NCBI GenBank assembly: GCA_023078555.1
Contig: CM041200.1
Coordinates: 5,646,861-5,710,860 of the forward strand
Direction of reading: 5' to 3'
Length of the DNA: 64,000 nt
DNA from: Ulva prolifera
Taxonomy: Eukaryota > Chlorophyta > Ulvophyceae > Ulvales > Ulvaceae
The notes under the pieces were generated by a model. The model was not told the DNA's origin, ran no database searches, and saw nothing but the letters and a program-made list of their open reading frames with translations. The position numbers were made by a program, and so were the translations under genes. Of the stretch, positions 916 to 64,000 are shown piece by piece (position 1 is the first letter of the stretch; each line of letters starts with the position of its first letter).

Positions 916-2692
916 ATGGACAGTACAGCTTCAAGCGGTACTTTGCTTCTGTGTCTTGGTTGGGCGACGTTAGTCTTCCGTTGCGTCGTACAAAGAACAT
1001 CCAGTGAATATTTATTGAATATGGGGTGCATTCCTTCCACGACGGCGCACGCGTCTAACGTGGTGGCTCAATATATACTGGCGCACAATGTGATCTGCCG
1101 TTGCAGTGCATGCCAATTGTCCAGTGATGTGTCCGTTCCTTTCTGGTTTGCATTGAAGCCTCCAGGAGGATACAGTCTTCAAGTCCTCAGTTGGAGCGGT
1201 AGTGAACTAAAAGAAACTATCAGTAGCTTGCTCCTCAGAGATAACCCAGTTTATGATACGCTGTATGATGGTCAGCGTCGCATCCTGGGTATGCATCTGC
1301 GCTTCCATGCATTTGATTGAGCAGCAGGGCAGTTAACTGTGACATGGTTCGATCTACTGCCGTGTGACCATCACGTACAGTCTTTGTGGTGTGTGCGTGT
1401 GGAACGGAAGGATCGAAAACAGAATTCAAGGGTGGGTGTGAAGAGTGCATGTTCATGTGTTCTGCAGAATACAATGATGAGGATCCTGGAACAGGCAGGG
1501 AAGAATTCTATCATGCACATTCTAAGGGTGTTCTGATGTTGGGCTGCAAGCATGCAACTTGGCTGCAACACAGTGTGCCTGCGTTCCCGCACCAAAGGGC
1601 ATTTTATCCACATGCACAATCTGTCTATGGGCAACATTTTGCATGCTTTCAGGTGACTCTCCTTTTGTATCTCTGCTGTTCTTGTCTTCTGCGGGTGGCT
1701 GAGTGAGTGTCAGCCTGAACACATGACAGTCTGTGGTGCATGGGTGAGCTTCTTGCATGTGGGACTCCAAGCTGTCAGCTGCAAACATGGGCACTTCTGT
1801 TCTACAGATGTCACTGGAAGCTGGTGAACGACTTTTACAGATCATCTTGTCAGTGGACCCCTATATTGTCTCCGACAATACCAGCTCTCTTTTACCTTGT
1901 GACGCATCACACGTTACAGAGCAGCTGCGGGAAAACGCCGGGGGCAATCACCCTTCCACCAGGCTCAAATCCGGCTACGCAAATTCCAGACATAGGGCAG
2001 AAGGCTTGACGGTAAGATCTGGTGGCACTGACCGCGGTTCCGACAACGCAGACTTACAGGAGACTCGGCGTTGGGGTGCGCATGCAGCGCAGGCACGACT
2101 TTCCACCACTGCGCAGGGCCATCAGAACATTCTAAGCGGTCCTGGTGCAGAAACATCACAAACCAAGTTCACACTCCAGACTGATGTTGGCCCAGCTGAT
2201 GTCATTGCTAAACCTGCACGCCTACATCAGGACATCTGGGATTCCCTAGTGGCGCCATCGATTGGCTGCAGTGCGCTAAGAGTTGAGTCGTGGCTGCATG
2301 GCGGGAACAAACTGCCAGACAGGTGCCAGGCTACGTCCTGTGTGGTCAATGCGGCTGGAGTCAAACTTGACATGCCATTGAAAGCAACTTTTACAGCATT
2401 TCCAACAGTGTCATGGCGGGCGGAAAGTGACGCAGCTGCAGAACCAGTAGGCATGCAATGGGACATCTATCAAGATCATGCAAAATGGGCAGTGTGCTGC
2501 AATACCGCTGCAGTATGTTTTGGTGACATGAATCGTATGCTATCGCAGCGGAAGCGAGGGGGCTTGGCAATCTGCTACCGACCATCGGACATGGGACGGA
2601 CACAATTTGCTGTGCAGCTACACAGGCGGCTGATTGCATGGCTGGTGCCTGACGCCCAGGCATGCTGTGCTCGTGCTCAACCTGCCATTTGA
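916..2692 (+). CDS. DNase II family acid deoxyribonuclease
   Basis: DNase II enzymes cut DNA at acid pH without metal, usually in lysosomes or outside the cell. Three exons join in phase: 916-1270, 1468-1652 and 1808-2692, giving about 474 residues. The first residues (MDSTASSGTLLLCLGWATL) look like a signal peptide, and FWFALKPPGGYS and NPVYDTLYD match the family N-terminus. Exon 2 holds HAHSKGVLML, the first catalytic His motif, then HSVPAFP and YGQHF. Exon 3 holds VAPSIGCSALRVESW, the second catalytic His motif DHAKWAV, and GDMNRMLSQRKRGG near the C-terminus. Family members are usually about 350 residues; the extra length is mainly a low-complexity insert of roughly 90 to 100 residues near the start of exon 3. 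An additional intron inside exon 1 cannot be excluded, because about 50 residues between the signal peptide and the first motif look unlike the family. Confidence 0.85.
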
Positions 2693-6270: not shown

Positions 6271-7900
6271 GTGAGAGCATCATCCACCCATTGCATGATG
6301 ACAGGGCCAGTGCAGAGCATGTGGCGACTGCGCACGGGCTCGAGCAGAGCTCAACCGACCTTATGTAGGGCGACGAGGCGTGATCTTCTGATCGCAGCAC
6401 CGGTGGCTGGCGTAGCTCTGCCATCGGCTGCATCCGGGGCCCCTTCCAGCATCTATGATTTTTCGGTCCAGCAGTACGGACAAACAGTCGAAATGTCAAA
6501 GTACAGAGGTGAAGTCGTTGTCGTCGTAAATGTGGCAAGCGAGTGACCCTTGCAGGTACGGTGACTGAGCGCTTCGATCGCTATCACCAAGAGAATCCGC
6601 CTTGCCATTCACGTGAACGAGGTGAAAAAAAAAGTAACACAGCAATTTGCTAGAGTGCACGATGCTGACCTTGGTCAGCTCGGTCTTCCGAGACAGTGTG
6701 TTATCCCGTCGTCACTGTTCAGATGCTGAATGAGTCCGTGGTGGTGTGCAGAACGTGAATTACCCTGGTCTCAGGAGACTGTACGAAACGTACAGAGACC
6801 AAGGGTTCAACTTGGTGGCCTTCCCATGCAACCAGGTGTGCCTGTGCAGCTGCAGGGTATTTGCCTGCTTGTAAGCATTCCCATTGCCCACCTTCCCGTA
6901 AACGCACCGTTGTCCTGCTGTGGTCGATTCTGGATGTCGTCACCGGGTGCGATGAGCGACACACATCTCACTGATTTTGTTATCAAGTCATCGACCAAAC
7001 TATGCTCGTTTCATGGCGGACAGTTGTTATTGTGTGCAGTTTGGTGGGCAAGCGCCAGGTACATCAGAGGATCAGCGGCAGGCTGCCTTCCGAAAGTTTG
7101 GATTTGAGTTTGATGTGATGGATAAACTCAATGTGAACGGTCCCGAAGCTGATCCTCTGTACCAGTTCTTGCGGTCCCGTCAACCCCAGTCAGTACCCCG
7201 AGGTAGCCGGGCCCCTTCTGGTTCCAGTGCCATTGAGTGGTGCGTCGCCCTATTCTGAGGTTTCTCTTGCCTCTAAATAAAGCTCTCTCACTTACATGTC
7301 GGTACGTAGAGTAAAAGTAAATCTGAATTTACTGAGCCGTATCCTATTGGACATTGACATCTCCGAGTTAACGGGACCACATAATGCCTAAGGGATAAAC
7401 CACCTGGAAATCCCCCTCCGACGACCGTACGCAACTCACAGGGCCTCCTCCGGTGCTGAGCGAGGTGGTCACGCACGGCCGTTGCGATTCCCTAGTATGT
7501 CGCATTCCATAGTTATTCGCAAGGGCACCCTCACCTTTGCTGCCATGCCAGCTGTTAGCTTCAGAGGATGGGTGAGGTCAATCTGCATTGGTTGACCAGT
7601 ATTGCATAACAGAACTGCTCCGGCTCGCACCTGGTCAATGGCAGCCGAGGTGCCCTGAACAGCGCACTCGTGTGCACAGCCGGTAGACACATCAAATTGG
7701 TTGGCCAGTGCAGGAATTACGTCAAATTCATGGTTGACCGAAAAGGGCAGCCGTTGAAGCGCTATGGACCTTCATTTGACCCTTCTGACTTCGAGGGAGA
7801 CCTGAGGCTGCTGCTGGCGGGCAAAGACCCAACCCCTGAGGAATGCCTGCTGCATCCTGGCAGAAAGGTCTGCAATGTTGATCGCCTCTTGGGCGCATGA
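6271..7900 (+). CDS. Glutathione peroxidase with probable selenocysteine (TGA at 6544-6546)
   Basis: Reduces hydroperoxides using glutathione or thioredoxin. Four exons join in phase: 6271-6555, 6752-6835, 7040-7239 and 7714-7900, giving about 251 residues. Exon 1 reads VVVVNVASE, then TGA, then PLQ before a strong CAG|GTACGG donor. Exon 2 continues NVNYPGLRRLYETY and FNLVAFPCNQ, exon 3 starts FGGQAPG, and the join between exons 3 and 4 rebuilds the conserved Trp (IEWNYVKF). The TGA sits exactly where the family has its peroxidatic Cys or Sec, and spacing to the NY motif is correct only if TGA is read through. Glutamine (FGGQ) and tryptophan partners are present. The N-terminus is Ser/Thr/Arg-rich like a plastid transit peptide and is followed by TRRDLLIAAPVAGVAL...ASGA, a twin-arginine-type lumen signal. 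The C-terminus has a Cys-containing extension (EECLLHPGRKVC). Exact start uncertain. Confidence 0.86.
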
Positions 7901-8021
7901 AGGCCATGTGTGATTTGGACCCGGTTTGGGTGCAGCCGTGGAGGCATATTCTGGCTGCTGAACCTGTGAACTATTACGTGTGTGTACTTGTTGATGTCAC
8001 CGGCTGTGCATGGCACAATTT

Positions 8022-8067
8022 ATGACAGGACCATGGGACATCCAAGAAATTGGGTCCATGTCCTCGA
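8022..8067 (+). promoter_or_regulatory. Candidate SECIS element in the peroxidase 3' UTR
   Basis: About 120 bases after the stop codon, ATGA at 8022-8025 is followed by a stem (AGGAC at 8027-8031 pairs with GTCCT at 8060-8064; ATGGG at 8033-8037 pairs with TCCAT at 8055-8059). AA at 8044-8045 lies in the apical region, and GA at 8066-8067 closes opposite the ATGA. This is the order of elements in a eukaryotic SECIS, the RNA fold that directs selenocysteine at UGA. Departures are a C-C mismatch next to the core, a longer than usual distance from ATGA to AA, and no clear lower helix. Only a candidate. Confidence 0.35.
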
Positions 8068-8402
8068 GCCAGGCAAAGACCTGCACCTGTTTCTCCTGAT
8101 GGGTGCATGTTGTCGCCGTTGTGTCGTGCGGGTGGGTGTTGTCATCATAACCAGATGTTCTGACCTGTGCATGAGCAAATTTTATCGTGAACAGATTGTT
8201 CCACGAGCGATGCAGGATTGTAAAGGTTACAATGGCTGATTCTGGTTGAGTCAACACAACCTTTGTATGATAAGCTGTGCCATAACAAGTGAACAACTCA
8301 AATGCACCAGCATGCAAGCAACATTGGTGTTCATACACAGCAAAGTTACTGGGTGACCCGCAGTGCCCTACGTGACACACATTATTTGATGGATCTACCA
8401 AT

Positions 8403-9530
8403 CTACGCCTTCTTGGTCTTCCCAGGGAACAGGCGAATGCAAGACTTATACAGAAGTCCTGAAAACACTACTGCGACCGCACCCCATTGCCCCGACGTCA
8501 ACATACTACCTGCCAGCAGCACGGACGCCAGGATACTAAAGAACTTCCGGGTTGTGCAGACGATGCTGCATATCAATGATCCAAATTGTGAAATTGTGTA
8601 AAAGATGGCAAGCTGCCCAAACGCCCCGCACAGGCAAAACCCAGCCAGCTCCCAAGCTGCAGCCGGATATTTCGAGCAGAAGGATAGTACTTCCATGCCA
8701 GTGTCAGATAGAAGGAAGAAGTACGCAGCATAATAGAGGCCACCCCAGAAATTCGTCCAGCACATCATGTGTAAGCTGGTCGTCTTCGGATACTTGCGTT
8801 TGATCTCATCTTGGCCGGTGTTTGTGTAAGAATCAAGAATCAGGTTGATCGCTACGAGAGCATACCCAAGCCAGGGGTTCTGGTCTTGGACCCCCGCTTT
8901 CCCCTTCCCAGAAGACAGAATGGCAAAAAGCCCCACTCCAGAACCAATTGCCAGGGCACTGACATATTCGAGTGTTCTGTACCGCTTACCATAAAGCAAG
9001 CTTCCTGTCAGCATGATGGGTACTGACTTGCATGACTTGGCCAGCACTTGAGCCGGATAGCTGATGTTCTTCAAAGCAAAGACTCCACACACTGGACCGA
9101 TAACATTAGAAACTCCGATAAGCGCATAGCTTCTGGCCGGAGGCATAGGACCTGTCTTGCCTCTGTCCAGGAACAACGAAAGCAGTGCTGCCCAAAGGAA
9201 GCACGCCATGCACTGAAAGCCTATCAGCGCATCGAGCCGTTCGAAGTGCACTTGCTCATCTCCGTACTTATTCTTTGACAGGAGCTCGGACACGCGTCCC
9301 TGCGTGATGTATGCGCCATAGATCATTGCGACACATGAGACGAACTGTACCGCCATCCATATCTTACTGGACGGCTTCTCATCATATTTCTTTGGAGCAT
9401 CATTTGTAACGAGTCCGTTTCCTCCTTTTGAGACTACCTTCATATTAAGAGACCTGCGTCGCCCTGAGAACTGAACGCAAGATCTCGAGAACAAGTTGAT
9501 GTACTTCTGTAGAAGCAGTTCTGCAAACAC
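8403..9530 (-). CDS. UDP-galactose/UDP-glucose transporter, SLC35B1 type
   Basis: Nucleotide-sugar transporter of the drug/metabolite transporter superfamily, expected in the ER or Golgi membrane. A single uninterrupted reading of 375 residues covers the whole family: an N-terminal cytosolic part, a first helix with AMIYGAYITQGRVSE, then about nine more hydrophobic segments. Family-typical stretches include NISYPAQVLAKSCKSVPIML, GYALVAINLILDSYTN and SIVCTTRKFFSILASV. It ends in KTKKA, a KxKxx dilysine signal for retrieval to the ER, which fits SLC35B1 better than Golgi relatives. The gene has no intron although its neighbours have several, so it may be a retrocopy or have lost introns. The start could also be the internal Met 30 codons downstream (MKVVSKGGNG); the longer start adds a basic leader. 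Confidence 0.93.
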   Translation of the reverse strand: MFAELLLQKYINLFSRSCVQFSGRRRSLNMKVVSKGGNGLVTNDAPKKYDEKPSSKIWMAVQFVSCVAMIYGAYITQGRVSELLSKNKYGDEQVHFERLDALIGFQCMACFLWAALLSLFLDRGKTGPMPPARSYALIGVSNVIGPVCGVFALKNISYPAQVLAKSCKSVPIMLTGSLLYGKRYRTLEYVSALAIGSGVGLFAILSSGKGKAGVQDQNPWLGYALVAINLILDSYTNTGQDEIKRKYPKTTSLHMMCWTNFWGGLYYAAYFFLLSDTGMEVLSFCSKYPAAAWELAGFCLCGAFGQLAIFYTISQFGSLICSIVCTTRKFFSILASVLLAGSMLTSGQWGAVAVVFSGLLYKSCIRLFPGKTKKA

Positions 9531-41819: not shown

Positions 41820-44527
41820 TCTTCTGTGAGGTCAGGTATCCTGCGAAGCATCTGTTTCGTCCTGCTCGCGCTGGTAGCAGCACCGTTCATTCTGCCATCG
41901 CACCGCTCAAACTTGGAGCGTGCGCCTCGCAAGCTGAAGCAACGTTGTCATTCAGTAGACAGGTACTGTCTGCTTGTGATTTTTCTAGGGTACTTCCCTG
42001 TGAGGTCCGAGATACCTGGGCCTTCGCTGCGCGCTGCTACAACACGTTCACTCTGCGGTCGATTTGCAGACACCGCTAGGCCCCCACACAGGCTCAGTGC
42101 AAGTGGATGGATCGATAACTCTGCCCTTACCCACGTGGCTCCAGGAAGCTGCAAGCCCGCAAATACCGTTCAAGCCTCCCACGTCAAATCGCGACAGCTC
42201 GACGGCAGCACATCGCCACAGAAACTACAGCAACAAGGACTTGGATAAACTGATATGCAGCATATCGCACGATCCAGTCGTATCTGATCGCTTGCTGGTG
42301 CTTCACCGCTGGCTACTAGATATCGACCATGCATTTGACTCCAGACTCTGCACCACTCTGATATCGTCATTCATGCGGCTGGGTCAGCCAGCAGCAGCCC
42401 TGAACATCTTCTTCTGGATGATCGAAGAGGCTAAGAAAGGTCGTAAAGAGCTCACTCCGACGGTGTATACTTACACAGCAGCTATTCAAGCAGCCACAGC
42501 AGCCCGCACGTTCACCCAAGCCTCGATGATCTGGAAGCATGCGCAAAGTGCAAGAATTCGGGGGGATGAGCAGCTGACATGCACCTACATGGCAGCTTTG
42601 TTTCAAGCCAGCTACTACAGCCAGGCCCTTCAGCTGTTTGATAGCTTGCACAACCGCCAGTCCGCACCGCCTGCACAAGCGTATGTGCTGGCGATACGCG
42701 CCCATACCAAGATGGGTAACGCTCGTGCGGCCCTAGATCTGTGGGACGAGATGCAAGAGAGGCTGAAGCGAGATATCACAGGTGGGCTCAACCATGCAGC
42801 CTTAGCCACAGCTGTCATGCTCGCACGAATGGCGTGCCATCTCCAATCTCTTAGGCTGACACCAGTCAGATGCCCCTCATTGTGCAGGCCATGGATACTC
42901 TGCTGCAATCTCAGCCTGTGCCCATGCAAGAGAGTCCGAAATGGCCCACAAAATCTTCATCAAGATGACACGCAGCGGTATTCAGCCCGACTGCGTGTCG
43001 TGCACATCCCTGATGCATGCATATGCCAGCACGGGGGCATGGCGTGCTGCAGAGACGCTGCTAGAAAAGATGAAACAGTCTGGCGTACAGCCACGGGCGC
43101 AGACGTACACCGGGCTGATGGGGGCGTATGGAGCCTCGGGCGAGCTCGGGCGTGCGCTTGCGCTGTGGCGTGCGATGCGCTCGCCTGAGTGGCGTGGCCC
43201 GGCCGCAGACGCACACGTGCTAGCAGTGCTTGTGAAGGCTGTGGGTCGTGGGGATGCGTCCCGGGGGGCGTCTGCAGAGATTGCAGAGGCCATATTCTCA
43301 GAGGCGACTGCGGACATGCCCGCTGCCATCCAGGCCTCCGCGTCGCTGCCTCGGGCGGCCGTGTCTGGTCCCGCAGAGGCTTTGATGGCAAAGACATGGA
43401 GTCAGTGGACGGAGGAGGGGTTCCATGCAGTTGAGGCTTTCCTTGGCATCACACTGGACGCGGAACCAGTAGTGAAAGGAGCCATGCAAGGTGCAGAGGA
43501 GATTTCTGTCAGCAACGGTGCTGTCTTGAGTGATGTTAAAGGACAGCCTGGTGCAAAGTGGGCGTGGAGTAGCGCACAGAGCCATGCAGAGAGAGCGTCC
43601 ACACCTGCTGCTGACTGTGCATCTGCCCACGCCGCAGTGGTAGCAGAGGCACAGCAGGCGCGGACAGGCGGCGGAAGCACAGGGCCGCAGTTAGACCCAA
43701 TAGTGAGCGTGGCGGGCGCTGCCGCAGCTGCAGCCAGGGACTCTGCCAGAGCAGCAGAGCAGGCCTGTGAGGAGAGGATAGATGCGGAGGCGGCTGAACA
43801 GGAGGTGAGAGACCTGACGGGGCGGGGGCTGCCAACGGGGCGCCGGCAGGAGAGCTTCAGCGATGTGAACGATGCGGTGTGTGTGGCGCTGATGATGACG
43901 TACTCTCGGGCGGGGCGCTGGCGCGAGTGCACAGCGGTGATCGGGCGCTCCCAGGAGTTGGGCATCGCTCCAACATCCCAGATGTTCAATGTGGCCATGT
44001 ACGCTGCAGCTTGTGCAAAGCAGCCCCACGTTGCCGAGGCGCTGTTTGACTCGATCTCTGGGGAGTCTTGGCGGGTGAGCTGGGAGACGCTGGTATTTGC
44101 GTACAGCCGATGTGGCATGCATGCTGAGGCTGAGGCGGCAATCGCGCATATGCAAGCCAGCAACATACCGCTGCGCGATTACGTTGCTGTTGCGCTAATT
44201 CAGGCATACAGTGAGGCGGGGCAATGGCGGGTTGCACTTCGTGTCCAGCGGCGGCTACGGTCACTTGGTATCAAACCCACTGTGCATGTGCTGAATGCAC
44301 TGTTGACAGTGTGCGTCCGATATCATGTGTATGATCGTGGGGTGAAGCTCTTGCGAGAGTTCCGGATTCGCGACTCGCCGAACAGGACTAAGGTAACGGA
44401 ACTGCTCGCTCGCGCTGTCTGCCAGGAGGAGGTGAGCACGATAGAGACACAGCAGGTGCTTGCGACTGCATTGTCTGGTCTCGCAGCAGCTGTTGGCGGG
44501 GCACTCATTCGCAGTGGCCTGTTTTAG
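41820..44527 (+). CDS. Pentatricopeptide repeat (PPR) protein, probably organellar
   Basis: PPR proteins bind organellar RNA base by base and control editing, splicing or stability. Confident exons are 42070-42781 and 42888-44527, joined in phase so that GHGYSAAISACAHARESEMA becomes a normal repeat. An upstream exon ending at 41962 (GSSTVHSAIAPLKLGACASQ, transit-peptide-like) joins in phase 0 to 42070; its left border and the start codon are uncertain. At least ten 35-residue helical repeats are visible, for example YTYTAAIQAATAARTFTQAS, CTSLMHAYASTGAWRAAETL, YTGLMGAYGASGELGRALAL, CVALMMTYSRAGRWRECTAV and ALIQAYSEAGQWRVALRV. An Ala/Glu-rich segment of about 180 residues (43300-43860) interrupts the array. 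No DYW or SMR domain follows the last repeats. Convergent with the EXS gene. Confidence 0.88.
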
Positions 44528-60344: not shown

Positions 60345-63300
60345 CTACCTGAAAACAATATCTTCCATCATCTTGAGCCGATACACCGCATACGCAAAAT
60401 GGGGGTTTGGGGCCAGCACTGCTTCTAGCTGACGAAGCACATCCTCGGTCGAGGTGGCAGCTGTATCTGAATCGAGGGACTTACATGCCGCCAGCAGCTT
60501 TTCAGCTCCGAGCTGCGCCTCCAGCCTGATCCTGAGCTCTTCAACCCTAGCAGCTGTGGCGCTGCTACCAGTACAGGCCTTCTGCTCAGGTGACGGAAGC
60601 CTTCCTGGTGCAGACCCCGAACCTGTGCGGCTGTCGCTGGATGCGCCGTTTGCACCGATCTTGTTGGGCCGGGCAGCCTTACTGCCCTGACCACTGCGCT
60701 TTCTCGACCTTGTCAGGCATCCAACACTTACACGCTCGCCTGACGACGGCTGCTTGCGGCGTCCTGATGTCACTGCCACAGCTGATGTTGCGCATACCCC
60801 TGCCGCACCTGTTCCAGGTTCACCAGGCTGCCAAGCTGACCCAGGACCGCTTGGCTTTCTTTTTGCGGCATGGACGTCCCTGACCGATTGCGCACGGCCC
60901 TGCAGCTCATCCACACGAGGCCCAACTGCTGGAGATTGCTCTGCAGCAGCCACTGATTGCAGCAACTCAGCCGAAGGCTGTGTGGTCACAGCAGGTTCAC
61001 TGCTCGTCGCCTTTGCACTGCAGGCCTTGCTGCTTTGCGATGGGAGGCTGCACCGAGGAAGGAAGATTTGCACGACTGGGTCACCCCCACCCGTAGCCGC
61101 CTGCGCTCCTTGCCCATGCTTCTGCAGCACGGCACCAGCACGCCTCTCCTTCAGCGCAGCGCGAGTCACCTGTGCAGTCCCAATGCCAGCACGACTGACT
61201 TGCCCAGGCACGTCATGAACGTGGCTGTCCCCACCTCCCTGCAAGAGCGTGCTTCGCTGAGCACGTACATGCTGCTGCTGGCCACCCTTGGCCTGTGCAT
61301 TGTTGCCCCTGGAGCTTGGCCTGGAAGCAGCAACAGAAGACGCATCGGAGTCAACCTTCTGGCTGGCTGGTTCCATAGAGTCTGCCAGGATGACAAACGA
61401 TGGCGCGTCTGGCCGGGAACCACGGGCGCCGCCGTCCTGGTTTGTTTTCGGCTCCATCCCTGCCCCTGCCTTCTTTATATCCTCCCGACGCACTCGAGCT
61501 TTCACATGCTTCAACGCAAAGCGGTGAGCTGCCTTCAACTCCTCAGCGCGTCGGCGCTCCGCTGCGCGCTCCTGTGCCTTGGATGGCTGGTCAGGGGACA
61601 CAATGCTTACGCGCCTCTGCTGGGCCGGTCCTTGCGTGCTCCCCCATTTCGGCCGCACCTGCAGTCATGCTTAGCACTCAAGGAAGCGCGCACACACAAT
61701 CTGCGGGCAGCCGGGAGAACGTCTGAGGCCAGCTCAGTATGGGGCCAGAGCTGCCACAGCAATTGAGCGGAGAGCTTCTGACATACCTTGAAGGAGGTGG
61801 GCTCTTTTCCTGGCCGCTTCACATTCGAACAGAAGCCCGCCCTTGAAGGAGCAGCAGGCATGGAGCATGCACCACCTTTGAGCAGAGTCCTTCGCCCCTG
61901 CGTGCTCATCTGGGCACTTCGCTGCTGAGTATAATTCAGGCTCTTGCGGAGAGGGTTTGCAGGGTCGGCGCGAACGGTCGGACGAGCACACGCAGAAAGC
62001 ACTGAAGCGTCCGCCTTACGTGCTGGAATGCACTGTAGCGCTGCGGCTGCTGCTGAACTCGTCCCCGTGGATGACCCGGGGCTGGCGGGGCCATACCTGT
62101 CTGCCCCCATGGATGCATGGCGCTGATTTCCAGCAGCGCCAATGAGGGCGCCTCGATGTCTATCATTTCCAGGCTTGCAATGTGAGCCTGGTGTTACACA
62201 GGGACTCGATGGCGATGCCTGTTGTGATGCATTTCGTCTTCCGGGTTTCCGCGGACTGTACCGCGGCGACGTCGTGACAGATACCTCCAGGCCACGGACT
62301 TCTGCTGATGTGGCTGCGCTCATGTCTGTACACACTGTAGGCACGGGCGAGGCACGAGAACTGACACATGAGCGGCTGCAACAGCGCTCTAATGCCGAAG
62401 TCGACCGCAGCTCCATCGACTTTGTCAGTGCACCCTGCATCAGATCTAACGCTGCAAAGTTGTCCTGCAGCCACGCCTTGCTGACGAGGCGCTGACCACT
62501 TACACGGCGGCTGTCCTTGCGAGTGTCACGGGCCATTTCGTGTGCGGAACGAAGCCGAGCACGTGAGGCATCAGCTTCAGGACTACAAGTGCTGCCAGAT
62601 GGCTCAGCCAGGGCATCACTGATCACCTCAAGCCTGGCAGTGCCACACGGCATGCCTGTAGATACACTGTGCGGCAGCGGCGGCGTGTGAGGCCTCACAC
62701 GCTCAGGGGGCAGCGATGTAGATGGCTGCATCTGATCCACAGGTTTGGCCTCGGGGCTGCACAGCGTCAAGCCGTGGACAGGCACGATTGAGCCCCAGGG
62801 TGCTTCACCCTCCTTGCTGCGGATTGGCTGAGAGCATACTGAGCTTAGGGAGCTCAGGGAGCTCAGGTCGCCAAGTGCGTCTCGGCAGGCAGCCTTCTCA
62901 GGATCACTGGGTTCCCTGCCCGCATCCTCTGTGTACACTGCATCATGTTACTTGCACTGCTCAGAGCTAAGACTCACAACAACAACGACGACAAGCAAGA
63001 CTATGCCAGTGCAGAGGAACGTCGCACCCAAAGCACCAGGCATGCTGTGGCCCTGACTAGAAAATGTCTGGCTCGCGGAGGTATCCTGGATTGGCTGTAG
63101 CACTGGTACGATATGCACATCTTCCACATCTGAGAGGCAGAAGGAACGAATCCGCTGGCTCGCTGAGGACTTCATGCGCACTCCTGCTGCAACAGCAGCC
63201 TTGCCCTTGGTCAGGCTGCTGCGCAGGGACGTGCTGGCTGAAGCAGGAGTTTCCCTGAGACGAGCCGACAGCGACGCATGCACACTGCCCAACAGCCGCC

Positions 63301-63795
63301 GGACCTCCTTACAGGCCGCTTTTGTACGTGTGTCAGATGCTGGATTCTGAGGCCCTGGTTGTGAGTCTTCACAACCACTGGAAGTACTGGCAGCAGGCAC
63401 AGCCAATGGCTGTAGTGTTGGGGGCATTGCGAGAGTCATTGTGTCTGCTGAGAACGAGCTAGCGTTTGAGGCACGTGGCCAGCGAACTTCGGGGAGCTGC
63501 TTCCGCATGAGATCTGAGTACCGCTGCAAGTATGGCTGCATCCATGGTAGCTTGAGGATGGCGTCGGCAGTGGGCCGGCGGGCTGGGTTCTGTGACAACA
63601 TGGAGCGAATGAGGCTGCACAGGTGGACGCTGAAGCGAGATGGGACCGGAGAGAAGCGGCCCATCAGGATGTTGACCATCAATGCCGGCATGGTGTTACC
63701 ACTGAATGCCCTTTTCAGTGTTGTCAGCTCATACAGCAAGCATCCAAGGCTCCATATGTCGCTCTTCTCACAGTATGGCTTGCGCTCGCACATTT
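60345..63795 (-). CDS. NIMA-related (NEK) protein kinase, 5' end outside the window
   Basis: NEK kinases regulate the cell cycle and cilia or flagella. Three exons join in phase on the minus strand: 63795-63037, 62928-61787 and 61658-60345 (over 1,070 residues). The first begins inside the kinase C-lobe just after the activation segment (EMCERKPYCEKSDIWSLGCL), then LYELTTLKRAFSGNTMPALM and NPARRPTADAILKLPW, typical of NEK1/NEK5-type kinases. A very long Ser/Ala/Arg-rich, probably disordered region follows. Near the C-terminus are an Ala/Glu/Arg coiled segment (AQERAAERRRAEELKAAHRF) and a terminal LEAQLGAEKLLAACKSL ... YRLKMMEDIVF motif, which is characteristic of the NEK1/5 C-terminus. The N-lobe and catalytic loop must lie beyond position 64000. 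An acceptor at 63796-63797 marks the upstream intron. Confidence 0.9.
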
Positions 63796-64000
63796 CTGCA
63801 GAAGTTCCATTCATGTGTCAGTTTGGAACCCAGTTGGCTGACCGGAATTAACACGAATGCTCCTGTGCAATGCAGATGCAGCTGTGCGCTTCCTCACAAT
63901 CATGCGCACGAACTGCGAGGTATGTGGTGATCCTGATGTCTGAACCATGTTCCAAGAAGCTTTCTGTCTGCAACTGCAGATTCATGAGGCAATGCATGTG
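63796..64000 (-). other. Intron of the NEK kinase gene at the window edge
   Basis: Follows the acceptor CTGCAG at the NEK exon and shows no kinase motif on the minus strand within 205 bases. The activation-loop exon is expected beyond the edge. Confidence 0.5.

Follow-up and report, generated by a model that had tools for sequence, protein, structure and literature searches.

The TGA at positions 6544-6546 of a GPX4-type glutathione peroxidase gene of Ulva prolifera is very probably translated as selenocysteine (Sec), and the product of this gene is in all likelihood a genuine selenoprotein. This reading, already put forward in the initial annotation, is supported because the TGA occupies the catalytic column of the family, because the genome encodes tRNA-Sec, eEFSec, SecS and SelD, and because a second Sec gene, SelT, is present together with its SECIS element. 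Positions without a prefix refer to the window, i.e. the whole analysed stretch of 64,000 nucleotides (C5:5646861-5710860). The searches outside the window covered the genome (88.9 Mb in 44 contigs) and 14 control genomes.

Gene model and catalytic site

The spliced gene consists of four exons on the + strand and three introns of 196, 204 and 474 nt, all with GT..AG borders. Exon 1 (6319-6555) holds the active site NVASE-U-PLQ and ends at the donor CAG|GTACGG. Its frame is free of stops from 6259 to the TGA and otherwise open as far as the donor at 6555, and the in-frame TGA stands in the context ...KYRGEVVVVVNVASE-TGA-PLQ|gtacgg. The start codon is uncertain; the first ATG was taken at 6319, and in-frame ATGs are also found at 6295 and 6298. 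Exon 2 (6752-6835, + strand; NVNYPGLRRLYETYRDQGFNLVAFPCNQ) begins with NVNYPGL in phase 0 and is backed by the gene model as well as by Pfam and PDB matches. Exon 3 (7040-7239, + strand) extends from FGGQ, which contains the Gln of the catalytic tetrad, through IE as far as the second base of the tetrad Trp codon. This codon is split by the exon 3/exon 4 junction, and exon 4 (7714-7900, + strand) supplies the rest of it, followed by NYVKFMVDRKG with the tetrad Asn and by the remaining codons down to the stop TGA at 7898-7900.

If the TGA is counted as one residue, the product comprises 235 residues (236 codons including the stop), and neither a frameshift nor a further in-frame stop occurs between the TGA and the end of the gene. 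The readthrough protein matched the Pfam profile GSHPx (PF00255) from position 1 to 108 of 108 with 106.3 bits (cut-off 27). At a threshold of E <= 0.001 it also matched 41 sequences of the PDB, 2v1m with the lowest E value (2.3e-40), and the alignments with the PDB glutathione peroxidases, 2v1m being the best, were free of gaps at the TGA. The details described previously for this locus, namely the TGA between NVASE and PLQ ahead of a CAG|GTACGG donor, the phase 0 start of exon 2 and three phase-consistent, conserved exons beyond the TGA, were all recovered in the gene model. An annotation that reads this TGA as a stop would shorten the enzyme to a stub of 75 residues.

Relatives for the alignment were chosen with one motif pattern, which was run on 35 viral and 31 bacterial or archaeal loci. 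It matched seven of the 35 viral loci, all of them with Cys, and 31 of 31 prokaryotic loci, likewise with Cys; the 28 viral loci without a motif match, two of which gave unrelated strings, were excluded. Together with two paralogues from the same genome, these 38 relatives (31 bacterial or archaeal, seven viral) yielded 40 aligned sequences. All 40 have Cys where the window gene has the TGA, and the gene offers 90 other single-base routes to a stop codon; judged from this comparison, the placement of the TGA at the catalytic column is therefore more than chance.

The catalytic tetrad of glutathione peroxidases is composed of Sec or Cys, Gln, Trp and Asn. The latter three residues are all present in the window protein (among the 40 relatives, Trp and Asn are invariant and Gln is retained in 39), and the FPCNQFGGQ motif is retained. 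The spacing of five residues between the catalytic position and NY, as claimed in the initial annotation, is common to animal GPX4-type PDB chains, the window protein and the paralogue on C6; it is one residue shorter than in the window protein in the paralogue on C8 and in the bacterial sequences that were inspected. The residue following the catalytic position is Pro, versus Gly in 39/40 relatives, and the near-invariant Thr of the G-x-T motif (38/40 relatives) is absent, the sequence P-L-Q being found instead. G-x-T after the catalytic residue is common, yet it is not known to be a catalytic requirement. By its sequence the active-site loop is unusual.

Ahead of the domain, exon 1 encodes at 6373-6441 (+ strand) a twin-arginine motif, a hydrophobic stretch and an AxA motif (TRRDLLIAAPVAGVALPSAASGA), which by eye looks like a twin-arginine thylakoid transfer (Tat) signal. 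This N-terminus suggests delivery of the predicted protein to the plastid, perhaps to the thylakoid lumen. In the portions of the literature on selenoproteins and the thylakoid lumen that were accessible, no lumenal selenoprotein was found, which is not proof of absence. Past the family domain, exon 4 encodes a C-terminal extension with two Cys residues (PTPEECLLHPGRKVCNVDRLLGA; 7829-7897, + strand).

Sec machinery and further Sec and Cys genes

That the organism possesses a Sec machinery was borne out for tRNA-Sec, eEFSec, SecS and SelD and by a second Sec gene, whereas PSTK was not found and SBP2 is represented by an L7Ae-domain candidate only. The tRNA-Sec, on whose presence the selenoprotein reading depends, was detected at C3:9867193-9867278 with the Rfam model RF01852 (71.8 bits, cut-off 47), which was above its cut-off in 5 of the 14 control genomes, and was also reported by ARAGORN as tRNA-SeC with the anticodon TCA. 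The eEFSec-specific domain (C7:2130549) was above the cut-off here and in none of the 14 controls, and the best PDB match of the joined eEFSec pieces was the Sec-specific elongation factor 5izk (2.1e-17). SecS was detected as five exon pieces at one locus (C7:1601204-1604313), with a profile that passes in 3/14 controls, and SelD (SPS) at C5:2973714-2974763 with 239 bits for the joined pieces (cut-off 125; 2/14 controls pass). The motif RCKGCAAKVPP of SelD contains the active-site Cys and then Ala at the usual place of the second Cys, by which reading the protein is of the Cys type; a second Cys at this site is common in bacterial SelD.

The PSTK profile gave two weak matches in the genome, none above the cut-off. 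The better one is KTI12 according to Pfam, and the weaker one resembles a different P-loop protein by eye. The L7Ae domain at C5:5336800-5337015 is SBP2-like by eye, and its PDB matches were generic L7Ae-family proteins only (28 sequences, best E 0.0027).

The second Sec gene (C4:5931616-5932035) was the only match of the Rdx family above the cut-off in the genome. It reads CSG-TGA-GY in one otherwise open frame with a TAA end and reached 54 bits with the NCBIfam profile SelT/SelW/SelH; the finer name SelT is our reading of the sequence. A SECIS element is located 45 nt past its stop (NTGA, 12 nt, AA, GA), so that gene and element together span C4:5931616-5932140. This element meets the published rule, is the only rule-passing site in 960 nt, and a site with AA or CC so placed occurred in 1 of 400 shuffles. 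Its folding energy is not below that of the shuffles (z-scores of -0.1 and -0.2), and its assignment is based on motif and architecture. Even apart from the glutathione peroxidase of the window, Sec is very probably being inserted in this organism.

Two further glutathione peroxidase genes encode intact-looking Cys enzymes with 36.6 and 39.0% identity to the window protein. One of them lies on C6 and one on C8. The C8 gene was considered as a Sec gene due to a TGA inside the match; its catalytic codon is that of Cys, and the TGA is intronic. Likewise, MsrA with a TGA inside the match proved to be a Cys protein (GGCFW). No Sep15/SelM match was found in the genome at E <= 1. The thioredoxin reductase profile yielded 15 pieces from four genes at 14 loci, none above the cut-off, and no GC-U-G end was seen in the seven of these 14 loci that were translated, in which the C-termini of all four genes are represented. 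The SELENOU-type profile gave four matches, all of which were translated; the two weaker ones led to no assignment. The match at C1:3212037 contains two TGA codons, which were taken as intronic, and by eye reads RRPGC|VLCRDEA across an intron, i.e. Cys; the region C1:3210537-3213938 (- strand) contains a SELENOU/PRXL2-like gene of the Cys form, although algal members of this family frequently carry Sec. At C6:6938923, another SELENOU-type match, a CPFC motif lies upstream.

Among the few families searched, predicted Sec thus occurs in one glutathione peroxidase and SelT, and Cys in the two other glutathione peroxidases, MsrA, SelD and the SELENOU-like gene. This is a partial selenoproteome, limited to the families named here and without, for instance, SELENOK, S, O or MSP.

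The 3' region and the SECIS candidate

A SECIS-like stem-loop is located at 8004-8078 (+ strand), with its quartet 121 nt past the stop of the glutathione peroxidase gene. Its architecture was recognised by eye and then by script. Helix I (8004-8014/8068-8078) comprises nine pairs and is followed by an internal loop with the core ATGA (8022-8025) opposite GA (8066-8067). Helix II (8027-8036/8056-8064) has nine pairs and one bulged C, and the apex consists of a GAC bulge (8037-8039), a mini-stem of six pairs (8040-8045/8050-8055) and a GAAA loop. The candidate therefore shows the SECIS architecture (helix I, NTGA/GA, helix II) within a 3' UTR of presumed extent. The published rule demands NTGA, 10-13 nt, unpaired AA or CC, and GA, according to the accessible part of PMC2375036; the candidate fails this rule, as no unpaired AA or CC lies 10-13 nt past its quartet. 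Further features distinguish it from, or are shared with, the algal type II elements with a long mini-stem, as far as these are described in the same source. Helix I, the internal loop, the ATGA/GA core, helix II and an apical mini-stem are common to both; the GAC bulge stands in place of the unpaired AA or CC, and the quartet is preceded by A, versus G in most Ostreococcus elements (PMC2375036). In that source, SECIS elements of Ostreococcus and some of those in Chlamydomonas are reported to have a long mini-stem, and the overall form of the candidate is therefore at home in green algae.

The scan for sites with AA or CC at the required spacing detected no rule-passing SECIS within 3.8 kb of the stop. 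Within 6 kb, two such sites with CC were found at distances of 3.9 and 5.6 kb; they were taken as chance, because 36 sites of this kind occur in 128 kb of the window. The first SECIS scan and a loose scan were too permissive to decide; in the latter, -16 kcal/mol was reached by 4% and -14 kcal/mol by 11% of the 246 blocks, each 520 nt long, compared with -15.7 kcal/mol for the candidate. The test for the architecture, which was written after the candidate had been seen, gave six sites on both strands of the window (128 kb), two of which, including the most stable one, lie in the 520 nt past the stop of the glutathione peroxidase gene. The second of the sites in this 3' UTR, at 8171, was discarded for its weak helix II with gaps. 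When the 520 nt were shuffled 400 times with their dinucleotides preserved, 9 of the shuffled sequences contained any architecture site and none an equally stable one. Applied to 30 of 42 loci of the same genome, which amount to 193,628 nt on both strands, the test gave 11 sites, some duplicated by overlapping loci, and two of these (-16.6 and -15.9 kcal/mol) are as stable as the candidate with no known Sec gene adjoining. The folding-energy z-scores of the candidate are modest (-1.9 and -1.5). The Rfam SECIS model gave no match at the glutathione peroxidase gene up to E 10, which says little, because the same model was silent on the SelT element. The stem-loop at 8004-8078 is most likely the SECIS of the window gene.

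TGTAA serves as a poly(A) signal in chlorophytes, and a possible signal of this kind is found at 8219-8223 (+ strand). An ORF for a nucleotide-sugar transporter of the UAA family (8406-9530, - strand) converges on the glutathione peroxidase gene. Since the TGTAA at 8219 and a TTACA at 8227, which is TGTAA on the other strand, are 8 nt apart, the 3' ends of both genes may overlap. Elsewhere in the window, an ORF at 1757-2689 (+ strand) matched deoxyribonuclease II (PF03265), two overlapping ORFs with PPR repeats at 42064-44524 (+ strand) probably form one gene, and an ORF at 62951-63814 (- strand) encodes the C-terminal part of a protein kinase domain.

Proposed function, alternatives and relation to known algal selenoproteins

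In the proposed mechanism, the UGA in the transcript of this nuclear GPX4-type gene would be decoded as Sec, which the tRNA-Sec and eEFSec of the genome would deliver once an SBP2-like protein has bound a SECIS of the 3' UTR. The stem-loop described above is the most likely candidate for this element. The selenolate of Sec would then reduce peroxides together with the tetrad residues Gln, Trp and Asn, and the N-terminus would direct the product to the plastid, perhaps to the thylakoid lumen.

Because the SECIS is uncertain and the loop odd, two other readings retain some probability, a gene in the course of being lost and a SECIS of unusual type. It is improbable that the Sec enzyme is being lost, with a weakened SECIS, a drifting loop, a mostly truncated product and the two Cys paralogues doing the work. 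The missing AA or CC at the canonical place of the SECIS, the replacement of G-x-T by P-L-Q past the catalytic residue and the two intact-looking Cys genes elsewhere in the genome would fit such a loss; however, the frame is intact over 236 codons including the stop, with neither a frameshift nor another in-frame stop, and the GT..AG introns, the tetrad residues Q, W and N and FPCNQFGGQ are all retained. Also rather unlikely, if somewhat less so, is the full combination of a type II SECIS in which a GAC bulge replaces the unpaired AA or CC and a Tat-exported selenoenzyme of the lumen with a rebuilt U-P-L-Q loop, in a genome in which the SECIS of SelT is canonical.

A nonsense allele or an assembly error in a Cys gene, in which TGC or TGT is read as TGA, could be suspected because Cys, found in 40/40 relatives, is one base from TGA. 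Such an event would have had to strike the sole codon at which Sec is known, versus 90 other single-base nonsense routes, in a genome with a tRNA-Sec and a second Sec gene and with a SECIS-like fold 121 nt past the stop, and we regard it as very improbable. An alternative splice form that removes the TGA, the form with TGA being a regulatory dead end, is hardly credible. A scan of 6420-6752 with GT or GC donors, AG acceptors and at most one microexon of up to 120 nt gave, on paper, 1307 ways of joining exons 1 and 2 without a stop, but none of them yields a catalytic Cys at the distance from NY that is usual in the family. The nearest one, with a 7-nt microexon (6542|6693-6699|6752), yields NVASEQC-NVNY, in which the Cys is displaced by one residue towards the C-terminus and separated from NY by only two residues. 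Removal of the TGA by splicing with gain of a catalytic Cys, the outcome named in the initial annotation as speaking against Sec, was thus not found in any of the 1307 combinations, and translation of the TGA as Sec remains the preferred reading.

In its sequence and general features, the predicted enzyme shares with animal GPX4, the phospholipid hydroperoxide glutathione peroxidase, the family, the five residues from the catalytic position to NY and the tetrad; it differs in the lack of G-x-T after Sec, in the Cys-containing C-terminal extension and in the plastid-like N-terminus. Chlamydomonas reinhardtii, compared here by description only, possesses two Sec enzymes, CrGPxA/GPX1 and CrGPxB/GPX2, which according to the available text of PMC3095285 are organellar or chloroplast-targeted, and one Cys glutathione peroxidase; the two Sec enzymes are likewise mentioned in the accessible part of PMC9404770. 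Like the predicted product of the window gene, they are Sec enzymes of the GPX4 type beside a Cys form, whereas Sec is followed by Gly in CrGPxA (PMC3095285) and by Pro here. One survey, as far as its accessible text goes, reports that the sequenced genomes in its set of Chlorophyta outside the Mamiellophyceae, with one exception, contain the machinery and fewer selenoproteins, and that some predicted algal selenoproteins have no predicted SECIS (PMC6627142). With one putative Sec glutathione peroxidase, two Cys paralogues, a Cys MsrA, a Cys SELENOU-like protein and a Sec SelT, the window gene fits this chlorophyte picture.

If the SECIS candidate works despite its lack of the apical AA, the requirement for this AA becomes directly testable. 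The class of Sec glutathione peroxidases is already known and among the commonest of algal selenoproteins, the four most widespread being Sec-GPX, SELENOU, SELENOT and TXNRD according to the part of PMC7539508 that was available, and the window gene adds one Sec-decoding genome.
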